Below are positions 490 to 50,608 of a stretch of DNA of 64,000 nt, in pieces; the first letter of the stretch is position 1; each line of letters opens with the position of its first letter. The notes beneath the pieces were generated by a model. It saw only the letters and a program-made list of their open reading frames with translations, searched no databases and had not been told where the DNA came from. Origin of the DNA: Planctomycetota bacterium (lineage in GTDB: Bacteria > Planctomycetota > GCA-002687715 > DRQF01); assembly GCA_011369445.1 (NCBI GenBank), contig DRQF01000120.1, positions 1-64,000 of the forward strand, written 5' to 3'. The position numbers and the translations under genes were made by a program.

Positions 490-1940
490 GGGGATTGTCC
501 CGATTTCCGTTGAAACTCGGCGGCTCGGGTAGCCACTTCTGAGTCTATGCGGCGTCCTCCTTCTTGTCGATGTCCTTGAGAGTTTCGATGAGCATGGGCA
601 TGTGCTGGTAGCCGGTGATTCGTCGGAATTTCTTCTCTGCGTGAAGGAGCATCTTCGACGCCCAGCGCAGCGCCATGTCTGCGCTGCTCCACCGCTTGAC
701 GTTCCTGCAGAGTTCGCGCGTTCGAGAGAAGATGTTCTCGATCGGGTTGGTGCTTCGGAGTACCTTCCGCAATTCGTGAGGGACCTGGAGACGGTGAATC
801 GTGATTGTCTCCTCCAGGCCCTCGCGGAGGCTCGAGGCCGCCGCAGGACTCATGCTCTCGAGCTTCGCCAGGATCTTCTGCAGCTCCTTTTTGGCGTCGT
901 TGTATCGCAAAAGCCCCCATGCCGCTCGGAGCGCTCGGCGGATCCTCGCCTGTTGACCTTCGGGAAGATAGGAAAGCACATTTCGCATCTTGTGGATCTG
1001 GCAGCGCTGAATCGCCGCATGCTTGCCGAAGATGGCCTTGATCCCCTTCTTCAAAGCCTTCGCCCCGTCAATGACGAACAGACGATTGCGCTTTGGATCG
1101 AGCCCCCTGTCGATGAGATCCTCAAGCAGGGCCTTCACCACAGTGCTGTTCTCGGTCGCGCCATCCCAGATGCCCAGGACATGCTTTTTGCCCTCAGAAT
1201 CCACTCCCAGGGCCGCTACGACCAGGTAATCGTGAAACGAGATGCCGTCGATCATGATGATCGGAATGTCCAGTCCGTCCAAGGGGCGTTCCATCAAAGC
1301 GGCCAGATCCTTGGCCGTGGCCGTCTTCCAGTGGCGGCTGACCGAGCTTTTGCGAACGCCGTAGCCCTCACAGAACTCGTCAATCACCCCCTCGTAGTTG
1401 CGAGTCGACACACCACGGACGACACGGCGGACAACGTCGTCCTCCATCCGCCTATCCGCCTGAAACATCCGGTAGCGTTCCAGTTCGACCTCGCCACCAT
1501 CGACGTGACGAAGGCGGGGGCGCCGAAAGGGAACCTTCTTGCCGCTGAACACGACGTATCCATCCTCGGCTCCCCAGCGCACCGTTTCGCGTTCACGGTC
1601 ATGCTCGTAACGGCCTCCCGCACGCTGCTCAACTTCCTCGTCAATCAGAGCTTTCATGATCAAAAGGCCCGCTTCGGCAGCGATCGCCTCCACCGCTCCC
1701 TGGGTGGCGGCGAGCAGTTGCGGCATCCGAAAAGCAAGCTGAACTTCTCCTCCCCCCACGGCGATGACGCGCCCGTTCTGGGTTCCGGACTTCTTTTTCC
1801 TGGTCCTCGACTTCTTGCTGCGGTATTTCTTACTCGACACGGCGGTTCTCCATGGGTTTCCTGGTTGCGTTTGTCATTCCCAGGCTACCCGGAACCGCCG
1901 CGTTCATTTCCTCAATTCAACGGGAAGACGGACATCCCCC
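490..1940 (-). mobile_element. IS256-family insertion sequence with imperfect terminal inverted repeats
   Basis: Transposase ORF 545..1840 flanked by imperfect TIRs: left GGGGATTGTCCCGATTTCCGTTGAA...CGGCGGCTCGGGTAGCC (about 490-534), right end reverse complement GGGGATGTCCGTCTTCCCGTTGAA...GCGGCGGTTCCGGGTAGCC (about 1883-1939). Exact outer boundary and direct repeats not resolved. Confidence 0.7.
545..1840 (-). CDS. IS256/Mutator-family transposase
   Basis: 431 aa; motifs PIIMIDGISFHDYLVVAALGVDSEGKKHVLGIWDGATEN, RLFVIDGAKALKKGI...QRCQIHKMRNVLSYLP, STNPIENIFSRTR typical of IS256 DDE transposases. Confidence 0.93.
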   Translation of the reverse strand: MSSKKYRSKKSRTRKKKSGTQNGRVIAVGGGEVQLAFRMPQLLAATQGAVEAIAAEAGLLIMKALIDEEVEQRAGGRYEHDRERETVRWGAEDGYVVFSGKKVPFRRPRLRHVDGGEVELERYRMFQADRRMEDDVVRRVVRGVSTRNYEGVIDEFCEGYGVRKSSVSRHWKTATAKDLAALMERPLDGLDIPIIMIDGISFHDYLVVAALGVDSEGKKHVLGIWDGATENSTVVKALLEDLIDRGLDPKRNRLFVIDGAKALKKGIKAIFGKHAAIQRCQIHKMRNVLSYLPEGQQARIRRALRAAWGLLRYNDAKKELQKILAKLESMSPAAASSLREGLEETITIHRLQVPHELRKVLRSTNPIENIFSRTRELCRNVKRWSSADMALRWASKMLLHAEKKFRRITGYQHMPMLIETLKDIDKKEDAA

Positions 1941-2110
1941 GGGGTCGACCTTGGTAACGTGAGCGTGGCGATGTCCGAGGACGACCTGCGCGGCCTCGAT
2001 GCCCCAGTCCTCCGCGCCAGGCTCGGCTGAGTTGGCCAGAAACCACCCTAACACGTTGCCCACAAAGCACTTATAGTAGTGCACGATCTTCGGACAAATG
2101 CTTGGCCGTC
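1940..2110 (-). pseudogene. C-terminal remnant of a tyrosine recombinase/integrase, truncated at the IS right end
   Basis: Minus-strand translation ...NSAEPGAEDWGIEAAQVVLGHRHAHVTKV resembles the HSA..(R)..GIEAAQVVLGH...VTQVYAE block of tyrosine recombinases; homology ends at the IS boundary before the catalytic Tyr. Confidence 0.5.
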
Positions 2111-2130
2111 TGGTTGTCATCTCCCTGCAT

Positions 2131-2152
2131 TTATTTGCTGCGCAGCAAATAA
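2131..2152. promoter_or_regulatory. Perfect 22-bp palindrome (putative operator 1 of the AbiE-like pair)
   Basis: TTATTTGCTGC|GCAGCAAATAA, 73 bp upstream of the 2225 ATG. Confidence 0.65.
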
Positions 2153-2188
2153 GGTGTTTTCTCTTGCGCCTGGGCCAGATTTGGCGAT

Positions 2189-2206
2189 ATTTACTGTGCA
2201 GGAAAT
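2189..2206. promoter_or_regulatory. Imperfect second copy of the palindrome (putative operator 2)
   Basis: ATTTACTGTGCAGGAAAT matches ATTTGCTGCGCAGCAAAT at 15/18 positions, 56 bp downstream of copy 1, 18 bp before the ATG. Confidence 0.6.
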
Positions 2207-2224
2207 CTCATCAGGAGCTTTTCG

Positions 2225-3298
2225 ATGAGCGGAAGGCCACAAACCGAACAATCGATCGTCGAGCGTCTGCAAGATGCGCTGCGCGGCCTCCCGAGAGTAG
2301 AGGTCCGCGACTGGAGGCTCGAGCCATCTCCTGGAGATCTCCAGGGGGATGGAGTGCTCGACATCAGCGTCGCTGACCGCCACCTCTCGCTGGTGCTCGA
2401 GATCAAAAAGAGCGTTTATCCCCGCGACGTTCGGCAAGTCATAGAGCAGATGAGGCGCACCTCGCGGCAACCGAGCCATCGCCTCGCGGTCCTCGTGGCC
2501 GAGTCCATTTCGCCCGGGGCGAAGGAGCTGCTCCAGGCTGAGGAACTCGGATACTGGGACTCCGGCGGAAGCCTCTTTCTGACCGCTCCCGGCCTGTTCA
2601 TCCTGATCGAACGCCCGGCGCCCAAGTCTCTCAAGCGCACCATGCGCACGTTGTTCTCCGGCCGTCGAGCGCAGGCAATCCTCGCCATCTTGAATTCGCA
2701 TGAGGAGTGGGTCGGCGTCGCCGAGGTTGCGCGCCGGTCGGGTGTGTCGAGGCCAACGGTGTCCCAGGTGATGACCGAGCTCGAGCGACAGGGCTTCATG
2801 GACTTTCGCGGGGCCGGCCCCACGAAGGAACGACGAGTCGAATCTCCAGGAGAACTCCTCGACACCTGGGTGAAGGAATTTCCGATGCTCAGGAAAACTC
2901 ACGCGCGTCGGTTCTTCGTCCCTGGTCACAAGGCAGATCGACTCGCAGACGAGATCTCAAGGAAGCTGGAAGAGAGGGGCGTGACCTACGGACTCACTGG
3001 CCAGGCCGCCGCTCAGCGCTACGCACCGTTTCTCTCGAGCATCTCCGTGGTCACGCTCCGGATTCTTCAATCTCCCGCAGTCGAGGAAGCCATCGCCGAT
3101 CTCGGTGGACATGAGGTGGATGAAGGAGCAAACCTCGAAGTCTTCGCGACCAAGTCGGGAGATGAATTCAACTTCCGGGAGAAAGTCGACGATGTCTGGC
3201 TTTTGAGCCCGATTCAGGTCTACCTCGACCTCATGGGAAGCAAGGGGCGGTCGCAGGAACTCGCCGATCACCTTCGTCGGGAGAGGATCGGATTCTGA
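2225..3298 (+). CDS. AbiEi-like type IV antitoxin/transcriptional regulator with winged-HTH
   Basis: 357 aa; wHTH segment VGVAEVARRSGVSRPTVSQVMTELERQGFMDFRG; located immediately before an AbiEii-like nucleotidyltransferase with TGATG overlap; C-terminus WLLSPIQVYLDLMGSKGRSQELADHLRRERIGF is the typical AbiEi-family ending. Confidence 0.7.
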   Translation: MSGRPQTEQSIVERLQDALRGLPRVEVRDWRLEPSPGDLQGDGVLDISVADRHLSLVLEIKKSVYPRDVRQVIEQMRRTSRQPSHRLAVLVAESISPGAKELLQAEELGYWDSGGSLFLTAPGLFILIERPAPKSLKRTMRTLFSGRRAQAILAILNSHEEWVGVAEVARRSGVSRPTVSQVMTELERQGFMDFRGAGPTKERRVESPGELLDTWVKEFPMLRKTHARRFFVPGHKADRLADEISRKLEERGVTYGLTGQAAAQRYAPFLSSISVVTLRILQSPAVEEAIADLGGHEVDEGANLEVFATKSGDEFNFREKVDDVWLLSPIQVYLDLMGSKGRSQELADHLRRERIGF

Positions 3299-41004: not shown

Positions 41005-42720
41005 TCAGAACGTCACCTGAGCCTGCATGTACAGCAAGACCGCGGGATCGGAGCCTGCGAATTGATAGGTCGGCACAATGAAGAGTCCCGGCTGTCCAGG
41101 AACCGAAATCAAATCGGCGTCGAGGTTGTCGCTCGGGAAGAACACCGAGAGATTCGCGGTGAACAGAACATTCGCCGAATGCTGCCAGTTCGCGTACAGA
41201 TCGACCTCGTAGCCGTAGTTGTGGCTGGTGTAGAAGTCGTACTCCTCGTTGTCGATGTACCCCCCGATGACGGTGGCGCCGAACTGAAGATCCGGCTCTG
41301 GCCAGAACGTCACGCCGAGCTTCCAAAGGACGGAGTTGGACAGCGGGAAGATGTCCATGTTGCCGAAGCGGGACGCCCACGTTCCGTGGGTTCCCACGAA
41401 GAGCGGACTGAACCCGACCTCGTTCGTCTCGCCTCCTTCGGTCCAACGGAAGCCCGCATGAAGGGTGAATCGCCACTCACCGTCGAAGCGGTACGAGAAG
41501 AATCCCTCGCCCGCGAAAGCGGTGTAGTCCTCCTCCTGAAAGGCGACCAGCGCGGGAGACAACCCTCCCACCGTGTTGACCCCGCGAATGTTCCGCCCTC
41601 CGGTGCCCGTCTGAACGGCCAACTCCACGGAGGCCCAGAAGCTTTCCGAACTCTCGTAGAATCCCTCGCGAAGAGCCTCGTCACCCGCCCAGAAACGCAT
41701 ACCGATGGTGTGGAATCGGCCGAAGATCAACTGGGACTGGGTGCGCTCGGAAAGGAAGTTCGTACCGAACGTCGCCGGCCCGAGAACACTGTCGTCGCGA
41801 CTCTCGAAGAACACCCAATAGAGTTCGATCGTCACCGGGTCCAACGCCTCGAAGTTGAAGGTGTTGTACAAGCCGACCATCCACTCCTGATCCTTCGAAA
41901 TCGTCGGTCCCAGTCCGTTGATGGTGGCCGCGAAGAAATCCCTGGGGTCCGCCTCGACGGCGTAGAAGAGCGAGGCTTGCCATTCCCCGAGGTCCGCGTC
42001 GAAACGGACGGAATCATGGGTCAGGCCGGCGAAGAAATCGTCGGATCCAAGGAGGAATTGATTCCCATAGACGAGCTCTTGACGTCCGGCCCGCAGAAAG
42101 GTGTTCTCGCCGCCGTTGAAGAGGTCCGCCAGCTCGAGATAACCCTGATAGAGTTTCAAGTCGTCGAGCGGGTCCCGGATCTCCGAGCCGATCCGCGTGG
42201 ACGTCTCGAGAACGCTGTTGTTGTTGAAACGGCCGACCGCCTGAATCTCGAAGACGGTTCGGACGTTCTCCGTGAATCGAAAGTCCATGCCGAGGCGGAA
42301 ACGGCCGTCCGCGTAGATCCCCTGATCGTCCAGTCCATCGTTCAACGTGACGACGTTCTTCGAATAGAGCATGCGCGCCCGCGCCTCACCGTAGAACGTG
42401 AGGGTCTGCGCCACCTCGCCGAATGAGCCGACGCCCGTCCCGATGGGCAATTCCTCGTCCTGAAGAATGCTGTTGATGTGGGTCTCGAGACCTCGATCCG
42501 TTGTCGCCCCGCTCTCGATCTCTTCCAGGCGACCTTCCAACCTGGCGATCTGAGCTCGGTCCGCGGCGCGCTCTGCGCGCGTCTTCAGCAGCTCCGATTC
42601 CAAACGATCGATCTTGGCCTTCAGGTTCTCGTAGTTCTCCTGTCCGTACGCCCTCGGTCCGAGCAGCAACGTCGTGAGGAGGAGCACCCCCACTGCAAGA
42701 CGACTTTGAGACATGAACAT
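41005..42720 (-). CDS. Outer-membrane porin-like beta-barrel with N-terminal coiled coil (alginate-export-like)
   Basis: Signal peptide, coiled-coil ENLKAKIDRLESELLKTRAERAADRAQIARLEGRLEEIE, then beta-barrel-like FYGEARARMLYSKN...LRAGRQELVYGNQFLLGSDDFFAGLTHDSVRFD, terminal aromatic F. Confidence 0.72.
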   Translation of the reverse strand: MFMSQSRLAVGVLLLTTLLLGPRAYGQENYENLKAKIDRLESELLKTRAERAADRAQIARLEGRLEEIESGATTDRGLETHINSILQDEELPIGTGVGSFGEVAQTLTFYGEARARMLYSKNVVTLNDGLDDQGIYADGRFRLGMDFRFTENVRTVFEIQAVGRFNNNSVLETSTRIGSEIRDPLDDLKLYQGYLELADLFNGGENTFLRAGRQELVYGNQFLLGSDDFFAGLTHDSVRFDADLGEWQASLFYAVEADPRDFFAATINGLGPTISKDQEWMVGLYNTFNFEALDPVTIELYWVFFESRDDSVLGPATFGTNFLSERTQSQLIFGRFHTIGMRFWAGDEALREGFYESSESFWASVELAVQTGTGGRNIRGVNTVGGLSPALVAFQEEDYTAFAGEGFFSYRFDGEWRFTLHAGFRWTEGGETNEVGFSPLFVGTHGTWASRFGNMDIFPLSNSVLWKLGVTFWPEPDLQFGATVIGGYIDNEEYDFYTSHNYGYEVDLYANWQHSANVLFTANLSVFFPSDNLDADLISVPGQPGLFIVPTYQFAGSDPAVLLYMQAQVTF

Positions 42721-42955
42721 CCCCTTTTTCTTTCAATCCCTGCGCGATGGTTCTTCGGTCCTTCGCTGACGAGCATAAACCCATAGAAGACGCGATGGCA
42801 AGAGGTTACTCTCAGACTCACGACCTTTGGCGGATCATTTCCAAGCCAGCGGGTTGTCGAGAACACGCGCCAGGGGTCGCAAGGCGCCCTTGCCGCTGTA
42901 TCCGGCCTCCAGGGACGGCGGCTGGGAGCCGATAGAAACCGAGGAGGCTGACCGG

Positions 42956-45900
42956 GTGGATCCAAACTTGGAGTCGGGTCAAATCGTCGGCGATCGCTAC
43001 GTCGTCGGGAAAAGGCTCGAAAAATCTCGGAACGGGACGACCTATTCCGCGCGAGACCGCGTCCGGAAGGGGGAGAGGGTCCGTTTGCGAGTTTTCGTGG
43101 ACGAGGACTCATCCGACCCTGCACAGTCGATCCGCCATGAGCAGGAACTCGCACGCGCCGTGCCCCCTATCGCCGGGATCGTCGTCGCCCGTGAGGTCGG
43201 GGCCGATGGCACCCTGGTCTGGCGGGCCACGGAGTGGCGAGACGGCCACGACCTGAGAGTGCTTGCCGCCAAGGAAGGCGCCGTGCCCGTCGCCACGGCG
43301 GTCGACATCGGCCTCAAGCTCGCCCGCATCGTCGCCCAACTTCATCGCCTCGGCATCGCGCATTTGGGGCTCGACCTCCAGACCATCCATGTCGGGCAAG
43401 GCGGCGACGGGATCTGGATCGACGGCGAACGTTTCTGGCGAGCCCTCGACGGGAGTCAAGATTCGCCCTACCGGCGCGACACGAGCCGCGCTCCGGAATA
43501 CGCGACGCCGGATTCGGTTCCGGATGCGCGCACCGACGTCTTCGACATGAGCTGCCTGCTCACGAGGCTCATCATGGGGATGACGGAGAACGTGGCGGAT
43601 TCCGACCTGGAACGCTGCGATCCCGACGCCACCGTCCGATCCGAACCCCTCCCCCACAGGCTCCTCCAACTCCTGGAGAGAAGCCGGAGCGCCGACCTCT
43701 CGCAGCGGCCCAAGGACGCCGACGCTTTCTTGGAGGAACTGAGCCTCATCCACGATGAATTCTCCATCGCTGCCACGCGGACGATCCAAGCCATTCGACT
43801 GGACGGCGGCGACGACAACGCGACCGTTCTCACCAGCGGCGTCACGAGGACATCAGGTCCTGGTTCCTCCGGGTCGACCGGCAGTCTCAGCCAATCCGAC
43901 TTCGGGGGCGACCAGCCCTTCGAGATCGAATCCGTTCTCGGGCGAGGCGGGATGGGCGTCGTCTACCTGGCGCGCGACAAGAAGCTCGATCGCAAGGTAG
44001 CGATCAAGCTCCATGAGATCACCCAGATCGACGCGGAGAACGGCGAGGACTCCCTCGTGCGGGAAGCGCGCATGATGGCCCGCCTTCCCGTTCATCCCAA
44101 CGTCGTGGCCGTGTTCGCCGCCGACGAACTCGTCGACGGACGCCTCTACGTCGTGATGGAGTACATTGAAGGGGGCTCTCTTCACGGCGAGCTCCGTCGC
44201 GACCCCAAGATGACTTTCGATCGATTCCAACGGATCGCCCGAGATATCTGCGCGGGAGTCGCGCATGCCCATTCGCACGGATTGGTCCACAAGGACATCA
44301 AGCCCGCCAACGTGATGGTCGCCGCGGACGGGCGCCACAAAATCGCCGACTTCGGCATTGCTCATGCCCTCCAGAAGACGGGAATGATGGGCGACGGTGG
44401 CGGGACGGTCTCCGGGACGCCCGCCTACATGTCGCCGGAGCAATTCGAGAATCAGAAGCTCAAGCCGACTTCCGACGTCTACGCCATCGGGTGCCTCCTC
44501 TACGAGCTCGCCAGCGGAGCCCCGCCATTCACCGGTCGCGACGTGTGGCGACAGCATTTCTTCGACCAACCGCGCCCTTTGAGGTTCCGCTTCGAGAGCC
44601 CCGTGAACGACGAGATCGAGCGGATCATCATGAAGGCCCTCTCGAAGGACCCGAAAGAACGCTACGAGGATGCGGGGGCCCTCGGAGCCGCCCTTGCGAG
44701 AACATTCGCCAAGGCCTCCTCGGGGGAAACCGCTTCCGCGATCGCCCCGAAGGCAGGCCATACAACAGCAGAGATGGCGCCCCGTTCTCGGGGGCTCCGC
44801 GTCATCAACTACGGCATCATCGTCCTCGCCGTGGCACTGGCCGGAGTCCTCGTCTTCAAGTCCTTGAACGGGACTCCCGACGCCGTGGGCGGCACGATCC
44901 ATGTCATGGTCGGCGACACCGAGCTCGCCGACCGTAGGGATGTTCAGCTGAACTCGCTCTCCGAGCTGCGGATTCGCCTCGAACCCGGAGAAATCCTCCA
45001 TGAGGCCCTCTGGACAGCCGGTGCGACGACGCTCACCCTTGCCACGCGCACCGACCACGACGGAGTCATCACGCTCTGCGACCCTCTGGGTTCCTTCACC
45101 GAGGGGGTCGTTTCACTTCGATTCGGGGCCGACGGCGAGGCCGTGAAGGAAGATCGGCTGAAGGTCACGGCAAAACCCTGGACGCCTCCGGACTCGCTGG
45201 TCGAATCCGCGGAAGCTCTTCTCGCGGCAGACCTGTCGTCCAGCCCTCCGGCCGAACTCGAGACCCGCCAGCGGAAGCTGGAGACATTGAATGAGGAGGT
45301 CCAGACTCTTCTGGCCGCTCGCCTGCATAAGGAGCACCCCCTCGAGGATCGCTTGAAGTCGGCGTTGGAGACCACGCGCTCATTGCTCGCGGAACGTTCC
45401 ACCTCCCCCGTCCTCCGCATCGATGGTCCAGGGTTCTCGGGCCAACCCGAGGACGAATGGGGGCTGGTCACTTTGGACGACGTCACGATTCGCGTCGAAG
45501 CCCCCCGAGAGGGCCTGCAAGTCTCGGCCGAGCTGAACGACGAGCCCCTCTCGGTCAAAGCGTCGGGAGGCGCGTTTCGCATCTCCAAGCCCTCCAAGCC
45601 CGTCGACTCCGGAACTCTGGTCTTGACCGCCACGGATCGTTGGGGGAACCGAACACGCCTCGAACTGCACATTCGCGCCCTACCCTTCACGCCGCCGAAG
45701 ACGCTCCTGCGAAGCCGCGATGCCATTTTCGACTGCTTACGACGAGGCGACCTGGAAGAGGCCGAGTCCGGGCTCCTCGCCTTGGAAGCCGCCTGGAAGA
45801 AAGCGACCGACGGCGTCCTCAACCCTTCGGCCATCGACACGACCCCCCTCGAAGAAGTGCGTCGCGCGGTCACCGCCGCCCGTGATCGGAAGGAGCGCAT

Positions 45901-47554
45901 GAAGTTCCCGCCCCGGATCCAGGCCTCGGTGGCGGGACGGCCCGTGGCTCAGGACGAGCAGGTGGAGGTCGACTGCCTCGCCGACATTGCCCTTGCGATC
46001 GAGGCCCCCAACGACCTCGCTAGGTGGACGGCCACCTACGAGGGAGAAGTGGTTGGGGAAGGCGAGTCCCCGAACACGGTCAAGCTTCGGGAACCGGCCG
46101 CACCCGCCCGCGTCGGGGAACTCGTCGTCAAAGCGACGGACAAACTGGGGATCGAGACCGCTTTGCGTCTCACCGTGATCGGCCGCCCATTTCAGCTCCC
46201 CGAGGCGGCCGCGACCCGACTCGAAAAGATCCGTGGAGACATCGAATCCGGAGATCTGGACGCCGCATCCGAAGCGCTGGAGGCGCTCGATCTCGAGCTT
46301 CACGTGGCTCTAAAAACCCGCCTGAATCGGGATTCCACGCCGTTGGCGGCCCTGAAATCGCTGCGGACGGAACTCGAAGCCAAGCGCCAAAGCTCCCGTC
46401 GGGTCCCACGGATCTTGTGCGCCGGTCCCCAGGGGCCTCTCGAAAACGGAAGCGTCGTGACAGTGCGTGGTCTCGAGGATTTGGAAATCCGCCTGGACTG
46501 TCAGGGAAACCCCTTGGAGTTCCAAGTCACGTGGAATGGCGAACCCCTGGAGGCCCAACGGGACGGCGCCTGGCTGCGTCTGGGCAACCCGCCCCAGCCC
46601 GCCGCACGAGGGACTTTGACGGTCATGCTGAAGGACGCCCGCCATCGCTCCGTCAGCGCATCTTGGAGCGTCATCGGCAAGCCGTTCTCCCTTTCCACCC
46701 TCACCCGTCAAGAACTGAGCGCGGTCGTGCCCCTCCTCGCTCAACGCCGGGACCTCCGTCGCGTGGTCACCACCCTGGAGCGGCTCCAACGGACCGAAGG
46801 GGACCTCCGCGCGAAGTTCCTGAACCGTCAGCCCTCGGACCTCGCGGCGATCACGGACAGGCTGCGTGACGCACGCAAACTGCTGGCGGAAGCGAAGGCC
46901 ACGCCAACGCCCCAACCGATTACCCCGCGGCCAGTCATCCCCAGGCCGCAGCTCAAGGGGCCCAGCGCCACCCACGCAGGGCTTCGATTCATTCGAGTCA
47001 ACGTGTCCGGCCGACCGCTTTACGTCTGCGACCGGGAGCTTCCATGGGGCGCCTTCGCGTCCTGGTGGGCCGCGAACGGGAGTCGGTTCAACAGTCGAGG
47101 AGTGACGCCCAAGGCCGCCCGCATTCCCGTGACCGGAATCAAGGCCGAGGCCTTCCAGGCTTTCGCCCGCTCGATCGGCGCGCGCATTCCCACCCGGCGC
47201 GAATGGGAGACCTTCGCCGACGCGAAGAGTGGATCGAAGCGCTATCTGCAGGCCTACCCGGACGTGCGCTCCCCCAACTGCAACTCCCGCGTCTTCAATC
47301 CCCGGCGCCTCGGACGGGGGCGCAGGAAGAAACTCTCCCTGAAGCTCGCCGACGACCCGAAGTACGGCGGACATGGGCTCAATGGCTCCTTCTTCCATTT
47401 GGCCGGGAACGTGAGCGAGATTGTCAAAGGACCAGGCGGTCGATGGCAGCTCATGGGGTCCTCGTACAAATCGAAGACGACCCCACCCCTCGGCGCCCGT
47501 GTCTACGAGGGCCCGAAACCCGACGTGGGTGTCCGACTCGTCATCGACGGATAG
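42956..47554 (+). CDS. Giant Ser/Thr protein kinase: degenerate kinase + active kinase + TM + Ig-like/helical repeats + FGE-sulfatase-like domain
   Basis: GTG start with GAGGAGG SD; pseudokinase (HLGLDLQTIHV, IDGERF), active kinase (VLGRGGMGVVYLARD..VAIK, HKDIKPANVMV, DFGIA, GTPAYMSPEQ), TM YGIIVLAVALAGVLVF, C-terminal GLNGSFFHLAGNVSEIV. Confidence 0.88.
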   Translation: MDPNLESGQIVGDRYVVGKRLEKSRNGTTYSARDRVRKGERVRLRVFVDEDSSDPAQSIRHEQELARAVPPIAGIVVAREVGADGTLVWRATEWRDGHDLRVLAAKEGAVPVATAVDIGLKLARIVAQLHRLGIAHLGLDLQTIHVGQGGDGIWIDGERFWRALDGSQDSPYRRDTSRAPEYATPDSVPDARTDVFDMSCLLTRLIMGMTENVADSDLERCDPDATVRSEPLPHRLLQLLERSRSADLSQRPKDADAFLEELSLIHDEFSIAATRTIQAIRLDGGDDNATVLTSGVTRTSGPGSSGSTGSLSQSDFGGDQPFEIESVLGRGGMGVVYLARDKKLDRKVAIKLHEITQIDAENGEDSLVREARMMARLPVHPNVVAVFAADELVDGRLYVVMEYIEGGSLHGELRRDPKMTFDRFQRIARDICAGVAHAHSHGLVHKDIKPANVMVAADGRHKIADFGIAHALQKTGMMGDGGGTVSGTPAYMSPEQFENQKLKPTSDVYAIGCLLYELASGAPPFTGRDVWRQHFFDQPRPLRFRFESPVNDEIERIIMKALSKDPKERYEDAGALGAALARTFAKASSGETASAIAPKAGHTTAEMAPRSRGLRVINYGIIVLAVALAGVLVFKSLNGTPDAVGGTIHVMVGDTELADRRDVQLNSLSELRIRLEPGEILHEALWTAGATTLTLATRTDHDGVITLCDPLGSFTEGVVSLRFGADGEAVKEDRLKVTAKPWTPPDSLVESAEALLAADLSSSPPAELETRQRKLETLNEEVQTLLAARLHKEHPLEDRLKSALETTRSLLAERSTSPVLRIDGPGFSGQPEDEWGLVTLDDVTIRVEAPREGLQVSAELNDEPLSVKASGGAFRISKPSKPVDSGTLVLTATDRWGNRTRLELHIRALPFTPPKTLLRSRDAIFDCLRRGDLEEAESGLLALEAAWKKATDGVLNPSAIDTTPLEEVRRAVTAARDRKERMKFPPRIQASVAGRPVAQDEQVEVDCLADIALAIEAPNDLARWTATYEGEVVGEGESPNTVKLREPAAPARVGELVVKATDKLGIETALRLTVIGRPFQLPEAAATRLEKIRGDIESGDLDAASEALEALDLELHVALKTRLNRDSTPLAALKSLRTELEAKRQSSRRVPRILCAGPQGPLENGSVVTVRGLEDLEIRLDCQGNPLEFQVTWNGEPLEAQRDGAWLRLGNPPQPAARGTLTVMLKDARHRSVSASWSVIGKPFSLSTLTRQELSAVVPLLAQRRDLRRVVTTLERLQRTEGDLRAKFLNRQPSDLAAITDRLRDARKLLAEAKATPTPQPITPRPVIPRPQLKGPSATHAGLRFIRVNVSGRPLYVCDRELPWGAFASWWAANGSRFNSRGVTPKAARIPVTGIKAEAFQAFARSIGARIPTRREWETFADAKSGSKRYLQAYPDVRSPNCNSRVFNPRRLGRGRRKKLSLKLADDPKYGGHGLNGSFFHLAGNVSEIVKGPGGRWQLMGSSYKSKTTPPLGARVYEGPKPDVGVRLVIDG

Positions 47555-47653
47555 CTCGCTCATTCGCCCCGCCTCACAAGGCCCACCGCGGCCCCCGCTC
47601 CAGGTGAAGGGAAACCCCATCTGGTGAGTATCACTCTCCAACGGAGACTTCCG

Positions 47654-50608
47654 ATGCGACTGATGACAAGATTCCTCGTTCTCGCGTTGCTGCTCAGCGG
47701 CACGCAAGAAGGCTCGGGACAAAGGCCGGCTCCCCACGGGGCCTTCGACACCTCGGAGCGGCAAGCCGCCTGGGAGAGGCACCGCGAGCTTCAAGCGGCA
47801 CAGCCCTTCAAGGGACTTGTCTGGCGCAGCGTCGGTCCCGTCATCCAGGGCGGGCGCGTCGTCGACGTGGCCTTCGTGCCGGGGCAACCGGGCCGTTTCT
47901 ACGCCGCCTACGCCACGGGTGGACTCTGGCGCACCGATGACAACGGTCAGTCCTTTCGCCCCCTCTTCGATCATGAGGCGACCACGGTCCTCGGCGCCGT
48001 CGCGACGGACCCCTCCCATCCCGATCGGGTTTGGGTCGGAACAGGAGAATCCAACTCGTCACGCTCCTCGTACGGGGGCATGGGGGTCTATCGATCCGAT
48101 GACGCCGGCAGGACCTGGACGGCGGTCGGCCTCGCGGACACGGACCGCATCGGACGCATCGTCGTCGATCCCGAGAACGGCGACAGGGTGTTCGTCGCGG
48201 GGCTTGGCAAGCTGTACACACAAGGCGGACGCCGAGGCGTCTTTCGAACGACCGACGGCGGAAGGACCTGGGAACACGTCCTCCAGACGACGGGTATGAC
48301 CGGAGCCATCGATCTCGTCATCGATCCCACGAACTCGAAAGTCGTCTATGCCGCGACCTGGGAGAGGTCGCGCCGCCCCTGGGATTTCATCGAGGGCGGG
48401 AACGGCTCTGGAATCTGGAAGTCCACGGATGGTGGAACCACCTGGAAGCGCCTCGAAGGCGGGCTTCCCCGTGGAGAGAACGTCGGACGTATCGGCCTCG
48501 CTCTTTGTGCGTCACGGCCAAGAACGCTTTATTGCTGCATCGACAACCAGGCCCCCCTCCCCGAGGACGAGATCGATCTCGGGGGCAATCCTTTGTCCGT
48601 CCGACGCGTCCGCGCGATGACGACGGAGGAGTTTCTCGAGTTCGGCGTCGATCGCATCGAGGGATTCCTCCGCGGAAACGATTTCCACCCCGACCTGGAT
48701 GCGGAAACCCTCATCGAGAAGCTGAAGAAGCAAGAGATCACCCTGAAGGACGTCCTCGACGACATCCAGGACGGAAACGCCGCGCTGTTCGACACGACGA
48801 TTCGCGGACTCGAGGTCTGGCGAAGCGACGACGCCGGGGAACACTGGACGCGAACCCACGAGAAGCCACTCGATGGCGTCGTGAACACCTACGGCTACTA
48901 CTTCGGACAGATCCGCGTCGCTCCCTCGGACCCGGAAACCGTCATCACCGTGGGGGTGCCCATGATCAAGTCGACCGACGGCGGGAAGACCTGGTCCTCC
49001 ATCCAGGGGGACGGCATGCATGTCGATCATCACGCCATCTGGATCGACCCCCACGACCCTCGCCACATCCTGGGGGGCAACGACGGCGGGTTGGATGTGA
49101 CCTTTGACGGAGGGGAGCACTGGGATTCCCTCGACGCACAGGCGGTGGGGCAGTTCTATACCGTGGAGCTGGACGATGCGAAGCCCTACAACATCTACGG
49201 AGGGTTGCAGGACAACGGCATCTTGAAGGGATCGTCACGGTCCGATCCACAGCGGGGTCCGCGTTGGACCCGGGTGGGCGGCGGAGACGGCATGTACGTC
49301 CGCATCGACGTCCGCGACGGCAAGACCATCTACTTCGGGTCCCAGTTCGGTCACTATCGGCGCCGTGGTCCGGACGGAGGCCACGAGATCCGCCCGCGAG
49401 ACCGGCTGAAGGAATCGGCGCTTCGCTACAACTGGGCCACCCCCATCCTGCTTTCGCCCCACACGCCGGAAATCGTCTACTTCGGTGCCAACAAACTCTT
49501 CCGATCGATGGATCGAGGCGAATCGTGGGCCGCCATCAGCCCGGACCTCAGCCGCTCTCCGCACCGAGGCGACGTGCCCTTCGCCACCTTGACGGCGGTC
49601 GATGAATCGACACTCCAGGTGGGCCGCCTATGGGCCGGGACCGACGACGGTCAGATCTGGACCAGCAAGGACGCCGGCCTGACCTGGGACGACGTCGGAG
49701 CGGGACTCCCGAGGGATCGGTGGGTGAGCCGGCTGGTGGCTTCCCGCTATGCGAAGGGCCGCTGCTACGTAACTCTCAACGGCTACCGCGACGACGACGG
49801 CACCCCCTATGTCTACGTGACGGAAGACAACGGCCGAACCTGGCGAAGCTTGGCGCAGGGGCTGCCCGGGGAAGCGGTCAACGTCATCCGAGAGGACCCC
49901 CTCGAGGAGGACATTCTCTATGTGGGGACCGACCGAGGGGTCTACGTGTCCCTAGATAGAGGGGAAAGCTGGATGGGGCTGGGCATGGGGCTCCCCTCCG
50001 TGCCGGTCCACGACCTGAAGGTCCATCGCCGGGAGCGGGAGTTGGTGGCCGCCACCCACGGACGCAGCGTCTGGATTCTCGACATCCTGCCCGTCCAGGA
50101 TTCCAAGGACGTGGCCGACGCGACGGTCCATGTCTACCCTGTCGAGGACCGAACCTTCTCGAGAGGCTGGCGGAGGCGTCCCTCGCGCTGGCGTTCCTCG
50201 AGATCCCGTGACCCCGAAATGAAGATCACGTACTGGGCGAAGGAAGCGGGTGACGCCGTCTTCGAACTCCAAGATCGGGACGGACGGGTCTATCGCCGCA
50301 TTCCTCTCGTGGCCAAGCGGGGCGTGAACGTCTTCACTTGGGATCTCAAGGTCGACGAGAAACCCGCCTTGGCGGCCGAACAGGAGCGGCTTGAGAAGAA
50401 TCCCCCGAAGACGCGCGAGGGCATCCGGGAGAAGATGCCCGTCCAAGAAGCCTTGAGGCTGGGTTGGCCACTCTACGCTCAGCCGGGCTCCTACCGAATC
50501 GTCGTTCGAATCGGCGACGCCCAGGCCTCGACGGACTTCAAGATGAAGGCGCCATCCTCCCGACGCTCTTCCAAGAAGAAGAAGGAGAAGATTCGAGGCA
50601 AGCGCTGA
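47654..50608 (+). CDS. Secreted VPS10/sortilin-like BNR-repeat beta-propeller protein
   Basis: Repeated Asp-box motifs (YRSDDAGRTW, FRTTDGGRTW, WKSTDGGTTW, IKSTDGGKTW, WTSKDAGLTW), signal peptide MTRFLVLALLLSG. Confidence 0.85.
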   Translation: MRLMTRFLVLALLLSGTQEGSGQRPAPHGAFDTSERQAAWERHRELQAAQPFKGLVWRSVGPVIQGGRVVDVAFVPGQPGRFYAAYATGGLWRTDDNGQSFRPLFDHEATTVLGAVATDPSHPDRVWVGTGESNSSRSSYGGMGVYRSDDAGRTWTAVGLADTDRIGRIVVDPENGDRVFVAGLGKLYTQGGRRGVFRTTDGGRTWEHVLQTTGMTGAIDLVIDPTNSKVVYAATWERSRRPWDFIEGGNGSGIWKSTDGGTTWKRLEGGLPRGENVGRIGLALCASRPRTLYCCIDNQAPLPEDEIDLGGNPLSVRRVRAMTTEEFLEFGVDRIEGFLRGNDFHPDLDAETLIEKLKKQEITLKDVLDDIQDGNAALFDTTIRGLEVWRSDDAGEHWTRTHEKPLDGVVNTYGYYFGQIRVAPSDPETVITVGVPMIKSTDGGKTWSSIQGDGMHVDHHAIWIDPHDPRHILGGNDGGLDVTFDGGEHWDSLDAQAVGQFYTVELDDAKPYNIYGGLQDNGILKGSSRSDPQRGPRWTRVGGGDGMYVRIDVRDGKTIYFGSQFGHYRRRGPDGGHEIRPRDRLKESALRYNWATPILLSPHTPEIVYFGANKLFRSMDRGESWAAISPDLSRSPHRGDVPFATLTAVDESTLQVGRLWAGTDDGQIWTSKDAGLTWDDVGAGLPRDRWVSRLVASRYAKGRCYVTLNGYRDDDGTPYVYVTEDNGRTWRSLAQGLPGEAVNVIREDPLEEDILYVGTDRGVYVSLDRGESWMGLGMGLPSVPVHDLKVHRRERELVAATHGRSVWILDILPVQDSKDVADATVHVYPVEDRTFSRGWRRRPSRWRSSRSRDPEMKITYWAKEAGDAVFELQDRDGRVYRRIPLVAKRGVNVFTWDLKVDEKPALAAEQERLEKNPPKTREGIREKMPVQEALRLGWPLYAQPGSYRIVVRIGDAQASTDFKMKAPSSRRSSKKKKEKIRGKR

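Follow-up and report, generated by a model that had tools for sequence, protein, structure and literature searches.

Does a bacterial receptor carry, in one chain, a degenerate kinase domain joined to an intact one, and if so, what might the degenerate domain do for its partner? This question is raised by a gene in the window, by which we mean the whole 64,000-nucleotide stretch of the planctomycete contig that was analysed. The gene is a single unbroken ORF on the forward strand that runs from a GTG at 42956 to a stop at 47554. We favour this GTG as the start because a GAGGAGG motif is found 8 nt upstream of it; an alternative start, a TTG at 42827 (129 nt upstream of the GTG), is possible and is not needed. 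The encoded protein is laid out as a degenerate kinase, a linker, a canonical kinase, a transmembrane (TM) helix, four repeats and an FGE fold, with a Ser/Thr-rich juxtamembrane stretch between the live kinase and the TM helix, and Pfam recognizes domains of the Pkinase and FGE types only. The cytoplasmic Pkinase domain, the one TM and the C-terminal FGE-fold domain that define STK-TM-FGE receptors were all found in it. Together, the sequence and the structural models indicate a receptor Ser/Thr kinase of planctomycetes that spans the membrane once and has a predicted cytoplasmic pseudokinase-kinase tandem.

Table 1. Features of the predicted receptor gene, in positions of the window (aa, residues of the encoded protein).
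Feature	Position	Strand	Basis
Complete gene, predicted giant single-pass receptor, 1,532 aa	42956..47554	+	ORF and translation
Shine-Dalgarno-like GAGGAGG, 8 nt ahead of GTG	42941..42947	+	Sequence
Predicted pseudokinase domain, aa 11-265	42986..43750	+	Held-out HMM, PknB match, AF2, Foldseek, residue table
Gly/Ser/Thr-rich linker joining both kinase domains, ~50 residues	43751..43915	+	Sequence
Canonical Ser/Thr kinase domain, aa 322-570	43916..44707	+	Pfam Pkinase, own-genome profile, residue table
Single transmembrane helix, aa 616-634 (VINYGIIVLAVALAGVLVF)	44801..44857	+	Hydropathy
Extracytoplasmic repeat R1, divergent	44888..45397	+	Best z 4.7, to R3
Extracytoplasmic repeat R2	45398..45892	+	z 17.5 to R3
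Extracytoplasmic repeat R3	45893..46396	+	AF2 and Foldseek
Extracytoplasmic repeat R4	46397..46927	+	z 9.7 to R3, 11.2 to R2
FGE/EgtB-fold C-terminal domain	46952..47551 (Pfam match 47102-47425)	+	Pfam PF03781

The initial annotation had called for profile and structural comparison of the N-terminal region, and both identified it as kinase-like. The match to the Pfam Pkinase model was weak (16 bits, below the cut-off). A planctomycete kinase-domain HMM, built with every window sequence held out, matched residues 13-263 with 86 bits (E=3.5e-24), and phmmer aligned residues 11-234 with M. tuberculosis PknB from the PDB (E=1.3e-6). The AF2 model of this domain was a complete bilobal kinase (pLDDT 77, pTM 0.75) in which the activation segment, residues 163-186, was disordered. 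Foldseek placed the model nearest, among PDB structures, to mycobacterial PknA/PknB and staphylococcal PknB (E 3.6e-14 for PknA/PknB, probability 1.00, TM-score ~0.7). Since the model covers the N-terminal domain alone and was computed with ten aligned kinase domains as input, it counts as supporting, non-independent evidence. These findings indicate that the N-terminal domain is genuinely homologous to kinases across both of its lobes.

The residues of this domain were then set against the alignment columns that do not vary among 73 canonical kinase domains in our collection. The loss of hallmarks that had been annotated before was borne out, with VRLRV, HLGLDLQTIHV and IDGERF all present as quoted. 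The Gly-loop is lost and reads EKSRNG, and the beta3 Lys is replaced by R45 (VRLRV, aa 42). In the catalytic loop (HLGLDLQTIHV, aa 136), HRD has become HLG (136-138), with G138 in place of the catalytic Asp, while the Lys is D140, the Pro is Leu and the Asn is T143. At the DFG position (IDGERF, aa 155) the motif reads D156-E-R, with the Gly lost and the Asp (D156) kept. On the other hand, the alphaC Glu (E62) is kept, as are the fold-supporting HRD-His H136, the APE Glu E181, the alphaF Asp D194 and the C-lobe Arg R251. The same pattern extends over four planctomycete pseudokinase domains, that of the window and three others, in which 15 of 16 fold-supporting residues are kept (the sole change being Glu to Asp) and the catalytic Lys, Asp and Asn are mostly lost. 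The coding character of the degenerate and the live domain is alike (GC3 of 0.80 and 0.81, respectively). Judged from its residues and its model, the first domain is a kinase fold without the residues required for phosphotransfer, and it is predicted to be dead.

The second kinase had been described as intact, and this description agrees with its motifs (GRGGMG, VAIK, HKDIKPAN, DFG and GTPAYMSPEQ) and with a complete catalytic set consisting of G329-G334, K351, E370, HKD 445-447, K449, N452, DFG 465-467 and the APE Glu E495. The sole deviation is a Lys for the Arg of HRD, giving HKD; HKDIKPAN is a signature of Ser/Thr kinases. This domain was matched by Pfam Pkinase (3e-55, which is the score of the whole protein) and by the kinase profile of its own genome (4.3e-104), and the second kinase is apparently active.

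Beyond the kinases, the single TM and the approximately four repeats of the initial annotation were both recovered. Hydropathy gave one strong peak, at residues 616-634 (KD 2.55), and the four repeats, each pairing an Ig-like part with a helical bundle, span residues 645-1324; R2, R3 and R4 match one another significantly (z 10-17 relative to shuffled sequences), and R1 is weaker. The AF2 model of R3, run with the remaining repeats aligned, showed an eight-strand Ig/FnIII-like sandwich and, after it, a bundle of three helices (pLDDT 90, pTM 0.77), and Foldseek matched the beta part alone, to FnIII-like modules and to the BT4663 periplasmic sensor. As for the C-terminus, annotated as FGE-sulfatase-like, the fold was upheld and the enzyme was not. 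The PF03781 match at residues 1383-1490 scored 26.9 bits against a cut-off of 23.3, and the nearest PDB sequences are of the EgtB type (E 0.035). However, cysteines are absent after residue 1442, that is, from the last 90 residues, including the motif region 1474-1532, and an identity as formylglycine-generating enzyme was rejected because the catalytic cysteines of the C-terminal half of the domain are missing. For the same reason we regard the domain as an FGE fold that serves as a binding module, from which formylglycine-generating activity is not expected, and we infer that it binds a ligand or a cell-surface component.

The genes flanking the receptor look functionally unrelated to it, and no obvious signalling neighbour was seen among them. 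An ORF of 571 aa (41005-42720, reverse strand) diverges from the receptor gene; it is coiled-coil-like at its N-terminus, porin-like and beta-rich, and has no Pfam match. On the same strand as the receptor, 69 nt past its stop, lies a gene for a sortilin/VPS10-BNR repeat protein of 994 aa (47624-50608, forward strand). An M1 aminopeptidase is also encoded nearby, and LexA and DNA polymerase III alpha follow further downstream. From this arrangement the receptor gene looks stand-alone, possibly co-transcribed with that of the VPS10 protein.

About 44 kinase domains were found in the genome to which the window belongs (from 47 profile matches, some of which are split or lie at the end of a contig), and three of its ORFs are tandem kinases: the window protein (dead-live), C140 (live-live) and C263 (live-dead). 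The C140 protein (L096, 1,798 aa) has two live kinases, a TM and an FGE-like tail that lies under Pfam detection, and both kinases are also live in its orthologue from a sister genus (L109). In the C263 tandem (L097; G000:C263, 2850-6644, reverse strand) the second kinase reads HGRLCPAH, VSMR and GFG; the protein has no TM of its own, and a separate TM-Ig-repeat gene comes next (668-2764, reverse strand). An orthologous two-gene locus is present in G002:C819, from the family to which the window genome belongs (L123; 3-1484 and 1679-3757, forward strand), where the second kinase is equally dead (HGRLTPSC, DFG lost) and HGRL again replaces HRDL. In G001:C159 (L124; 3-497 and 530-2770, forward strand) the tail end of another C263-type tandem, its DFG likewise gone, precedes a TM-Ig-repeat gene, so that the downstream gene is common to all three loci.

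Three genera from another family of the order, CPC9 (G011), ARS1434 (G010) and RBC034 (G008), encode kinase-kinase-TM-Ig-FGE proteins of 1,957-2,034 aa (L098, L103 and L104) that have the same domain order as the window protein and in which both kinases are intact (HRDLAPDN and HRDLKPAN). The orthologues of the C263 tandem in these genera are intact, and, own-family G002 aside, the dead second kinase of C263 matches their live second kinases best. In the kinase tree, moreover, the first kinase of C263 joins the first kinases of these intact tandems at 100/99. Because the dead state is common to the family while the orthologues in G011, G010 and G008 are intact, an ancestral tandem of two live kinases became live-dead in the C263 lineage, probably on a single occasion, and the dead domain was then retained across genera.

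The L098 gene is one of three consecutive genes (G011:C45, 5043-15438, reverse strand) that encode the kinase-kinase-TM-Ig-FGE protein of 2,034 aa, a TM-Ig-repeat protein and an FHA-TM protein, and this array looks like a signalling module. The TM-Ig-repeat ORF (a 998-aa frame) shares the Ig and helical repeat of the window protein; it is the only one to do so, and an ectodomain in common with the intact tandem receptors themselves was rejected. Single-kinase giants of 1,834-2,141 aa are encoded in four genomes (L105-L108; G010:C9, G004:C3, G009:C74 and G006:C24). Their conserved C-terminus resembles, in sequence, an extracellular solute-binding protein of family 5, and in the kinase tree their kinase and the first kinase of the intact tandems are sisters (94/82).

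The initial annotation had left it to homologues of the same domain order to tell whether the degeneration of the first kinase is conserved, and by this comparison the degeneration is specific to the window protein, since the catalytic domain at that position is an ordinary one in the proteins of this architecture from other genera. Searches of 98 relatives, of 392 Planctomycetota genomes (profile) and of GTDB gave no orthologue of the window protein in which conservation of the dead state could be seen; scanning GTDB with the pseudokinase alone (84,980 species) confirmed no relative, and a viral collection returned two distant kinases only. A profile of five planctomycete pseudokinase domains revealed no further pseudokinase family over the 392 genomes, its own members scoring above 318 bits and the next matches, at ~208 bits, being generic-kinase-like by their overall look.

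Two more proteins with dead kinases were seen elsewhere in the phylum. L009 (G047:C611, 1453-3366, reverse strand) is a soluble dead-live tandem of 638 aa, with HRHLHPGN, VRIL and GFG in its first kinase and HRDLTPAN and DFG in its second, and is apparently independent of the window protein. L007/L099 (G068:C77) is an FHA-pseudokinase-TM protein (HGALELRSVML), and the window pseudokinase has its best single match there (32% identity, E 1e-15). In the kinase tree the window pseudokinase, on a branch of length 2.26, is placed with L007 and L012, a weakly supported grouping of long branches, and neither window kinase groups with the kinase-kinase-TM-Ig-FGE clades, the branches again being long. 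Since the window pair, the C263 tandem and L009 are each dead/live, the phylum appears to have given rise to such tandems at least three times, and we regard dead/live pairs as a recurrent outcome of kinase-domain tandems there and not as one inherited family.

Pseudokinase-kinase tandems are known mainly from eukaryotes (the JAKs and the plant tandem kinases). In JAK/TYK2 the JH2 pseudokinase is followed by the active kinase JH1 in one chain, and JH2 regulates JH1. The JAK-type order proposed for the window protein is indeed present: as in JAK, the pseudokinase comes before the kinase within a single chain, at the cytoplasmic side of a receptor system. In contrast to JAK, however, the window kinases are of the bacterial PknB-like Ser/Thr type and are covalently joined to a TM and an ectodomain, and the tyrosine-type JH1, the FERM and the SH2 of JAK all have no counterpart. 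Because the tree ties the tandems neither to one another nor to JAK, "JAK-like" is to be read as analogous only: by sequence, the likeness is one of layout, of independent origin and without kinship. The plant tandem kinase-pseudokinase proteins of the WTK1/Yr15 family also have two kinase domains, one of them predicted to be dead, but unlike the window protein they are plant immune proteins, mostly without an ectodomain (PMC6170490).

Among bacteria, FGE-like (DUF323) domains on kinases were noted as early as 2005 (PMC1262709). According to a survey that counts kinases by their K-D-D sites, Planctomycetota commonly have receptors of the STK-TM-FGE type; among accessory domains, the sulfatase-modifying-factor domain ranks third in abundance there and is mostly periplasmic in single-span STKs (PMC11032199). 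The window protein shares with these receptors the cytoplasmic Pkinase, the one TM and the periplasmic sulfatase-modifying-factor domain, and differs from them by the addition of a pseudokinase and an Ig/helical stalk. Single degenerate kinases are ordinary in the phylum, since K-D-D sites are present in 525 of the 610 putative STKs of Ca. Uabimicrobium and thus lacking in about 85; a tandem with a dead domain is not described in the passages of the survey that were read (PMC11032199). The bacterial pseudokinase families named in a 2025 review (ActPs1-3, GLW, CP1 and DLHK, including MviN) likewise have Ser/Thr kinase folds that have lost their catalytic motifs. The window pseudokinase, however, has HLG for HRD and not the GLW motif, and the word "tandem" is absent from the review, whose passages that were read describe no pseudokinase-kinase chain (PMC12599244). 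In the open-access literature, we found no description of bacterial dead/live tandem-kinase receptors.

How the two kinases might work together can be pictured as follows. Repeats R1-R4 would form a stalk with the FGE-fold tip binding a ligand or a cell-surface component, and a rearrangement driven by ligand or by clustering would be relayed via the TM to the live kinase, beside which the dead kinase would be kept by the linker of ~50 Ser/Thr/Gly-rich residues. The dead kinase could then act as a non-catalytic cis regulator that either restrains the live kinase or shapes an activating dimer and docks substrates, in the style of JH2 on JH1. That the dead domain regulates the live kinase in cis is argued here from analogy, and we see the chances of this as evenly balanced. 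It is favoured by the retention of fold-supporting residues alongside the loss of catalytic ones, by the completeness of the live kinase, by the recurrence of the tandem architecture in the order and by the family-wide retention of the dead second kinase in the C263 locus. Nonetheless, in C263 the dead domain follows the live one and the protein has no TM of its own, and the mechanism there may differ. The lack of an orthologue of the window protein in the genomes searched also speaks against this reading, as does the tree, in which the window tandem is not tied to the other tandems (long branch, weak support).

The position of the C263 dead domain would also fit a position-independent role, in which the dead domain serves for docking or as a scaffold that brings in substrates, partners of the FHA type or another receptor, or that mediates dimerisation, with no direct control of the state of the kinase. 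Non-catalytic bacterial kinase folds that act in this way include the MviN pseudokinase dimer and EssB/YukC, according to the 2025 review (PMC12599244), and the L007/L099 protein is a planctomycete example of an FHA domain and a pseudokinase in one chain. Yet no docking surface is singled out by the sequence of the dead domain and none of the neighbouring genes is an obvious signalling partner for it, and we hold a pure docking role to be rather unlikely. The first domain could alternatively be the decaying relic of a once-active kinase that stays in frame merely because the downstream part is needed, as might be suggested by the related tandem receptors with two intact kinases, by the length of the window pseudokinase branch and by the lack of a second species with a window-type dead domain among those searched. 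Decay is nevertheless improbable in our estimation, since the catalytic residues are lost and the fold-supporting ones kept, the domain is modelled by AF2 as a complete kinase with both lobes, the GC3 equals that of the live domain and the analogous C263 dead domain is retained across genera. Kinase-fold proteins without the HRD Asp can have other activities, and the retained E62 and D156 would, with Arg45, leave room for nucleotide binding or another transferase chemistry; with the Gly-loop, the beta3 Lys, the Asn and the DFG Gly all lost, such a non-canonical activity seems very improbable. Cis-regulation by the dead domain is the reading that we prefer.

The STK receptor type was already known; what is added here are the independent recurrences of dead/live pairs and the retained live-dead sister tandem of C263. 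The bacterial tandems give a natural series, made up of pairs of live kinases, pairs whose first member is dead and pairs whose second member is dead and has stayed so across genera, and this series allows a test, in simple recombinant bacterial proteins, of whether a duplicated kinase becomes a regulator before it loses catalysis. We tentatively suggest, while regarding it as open to considerable doubt, that Planctomycetota may possess a counterpart of JAK-type signalling, in which (trans)membrane-linked Ser/Thr kinases would be under the cis-allosteric control of a pseudokinase and which would have evolved repeatedly and independently through the death of one member of a tandem.
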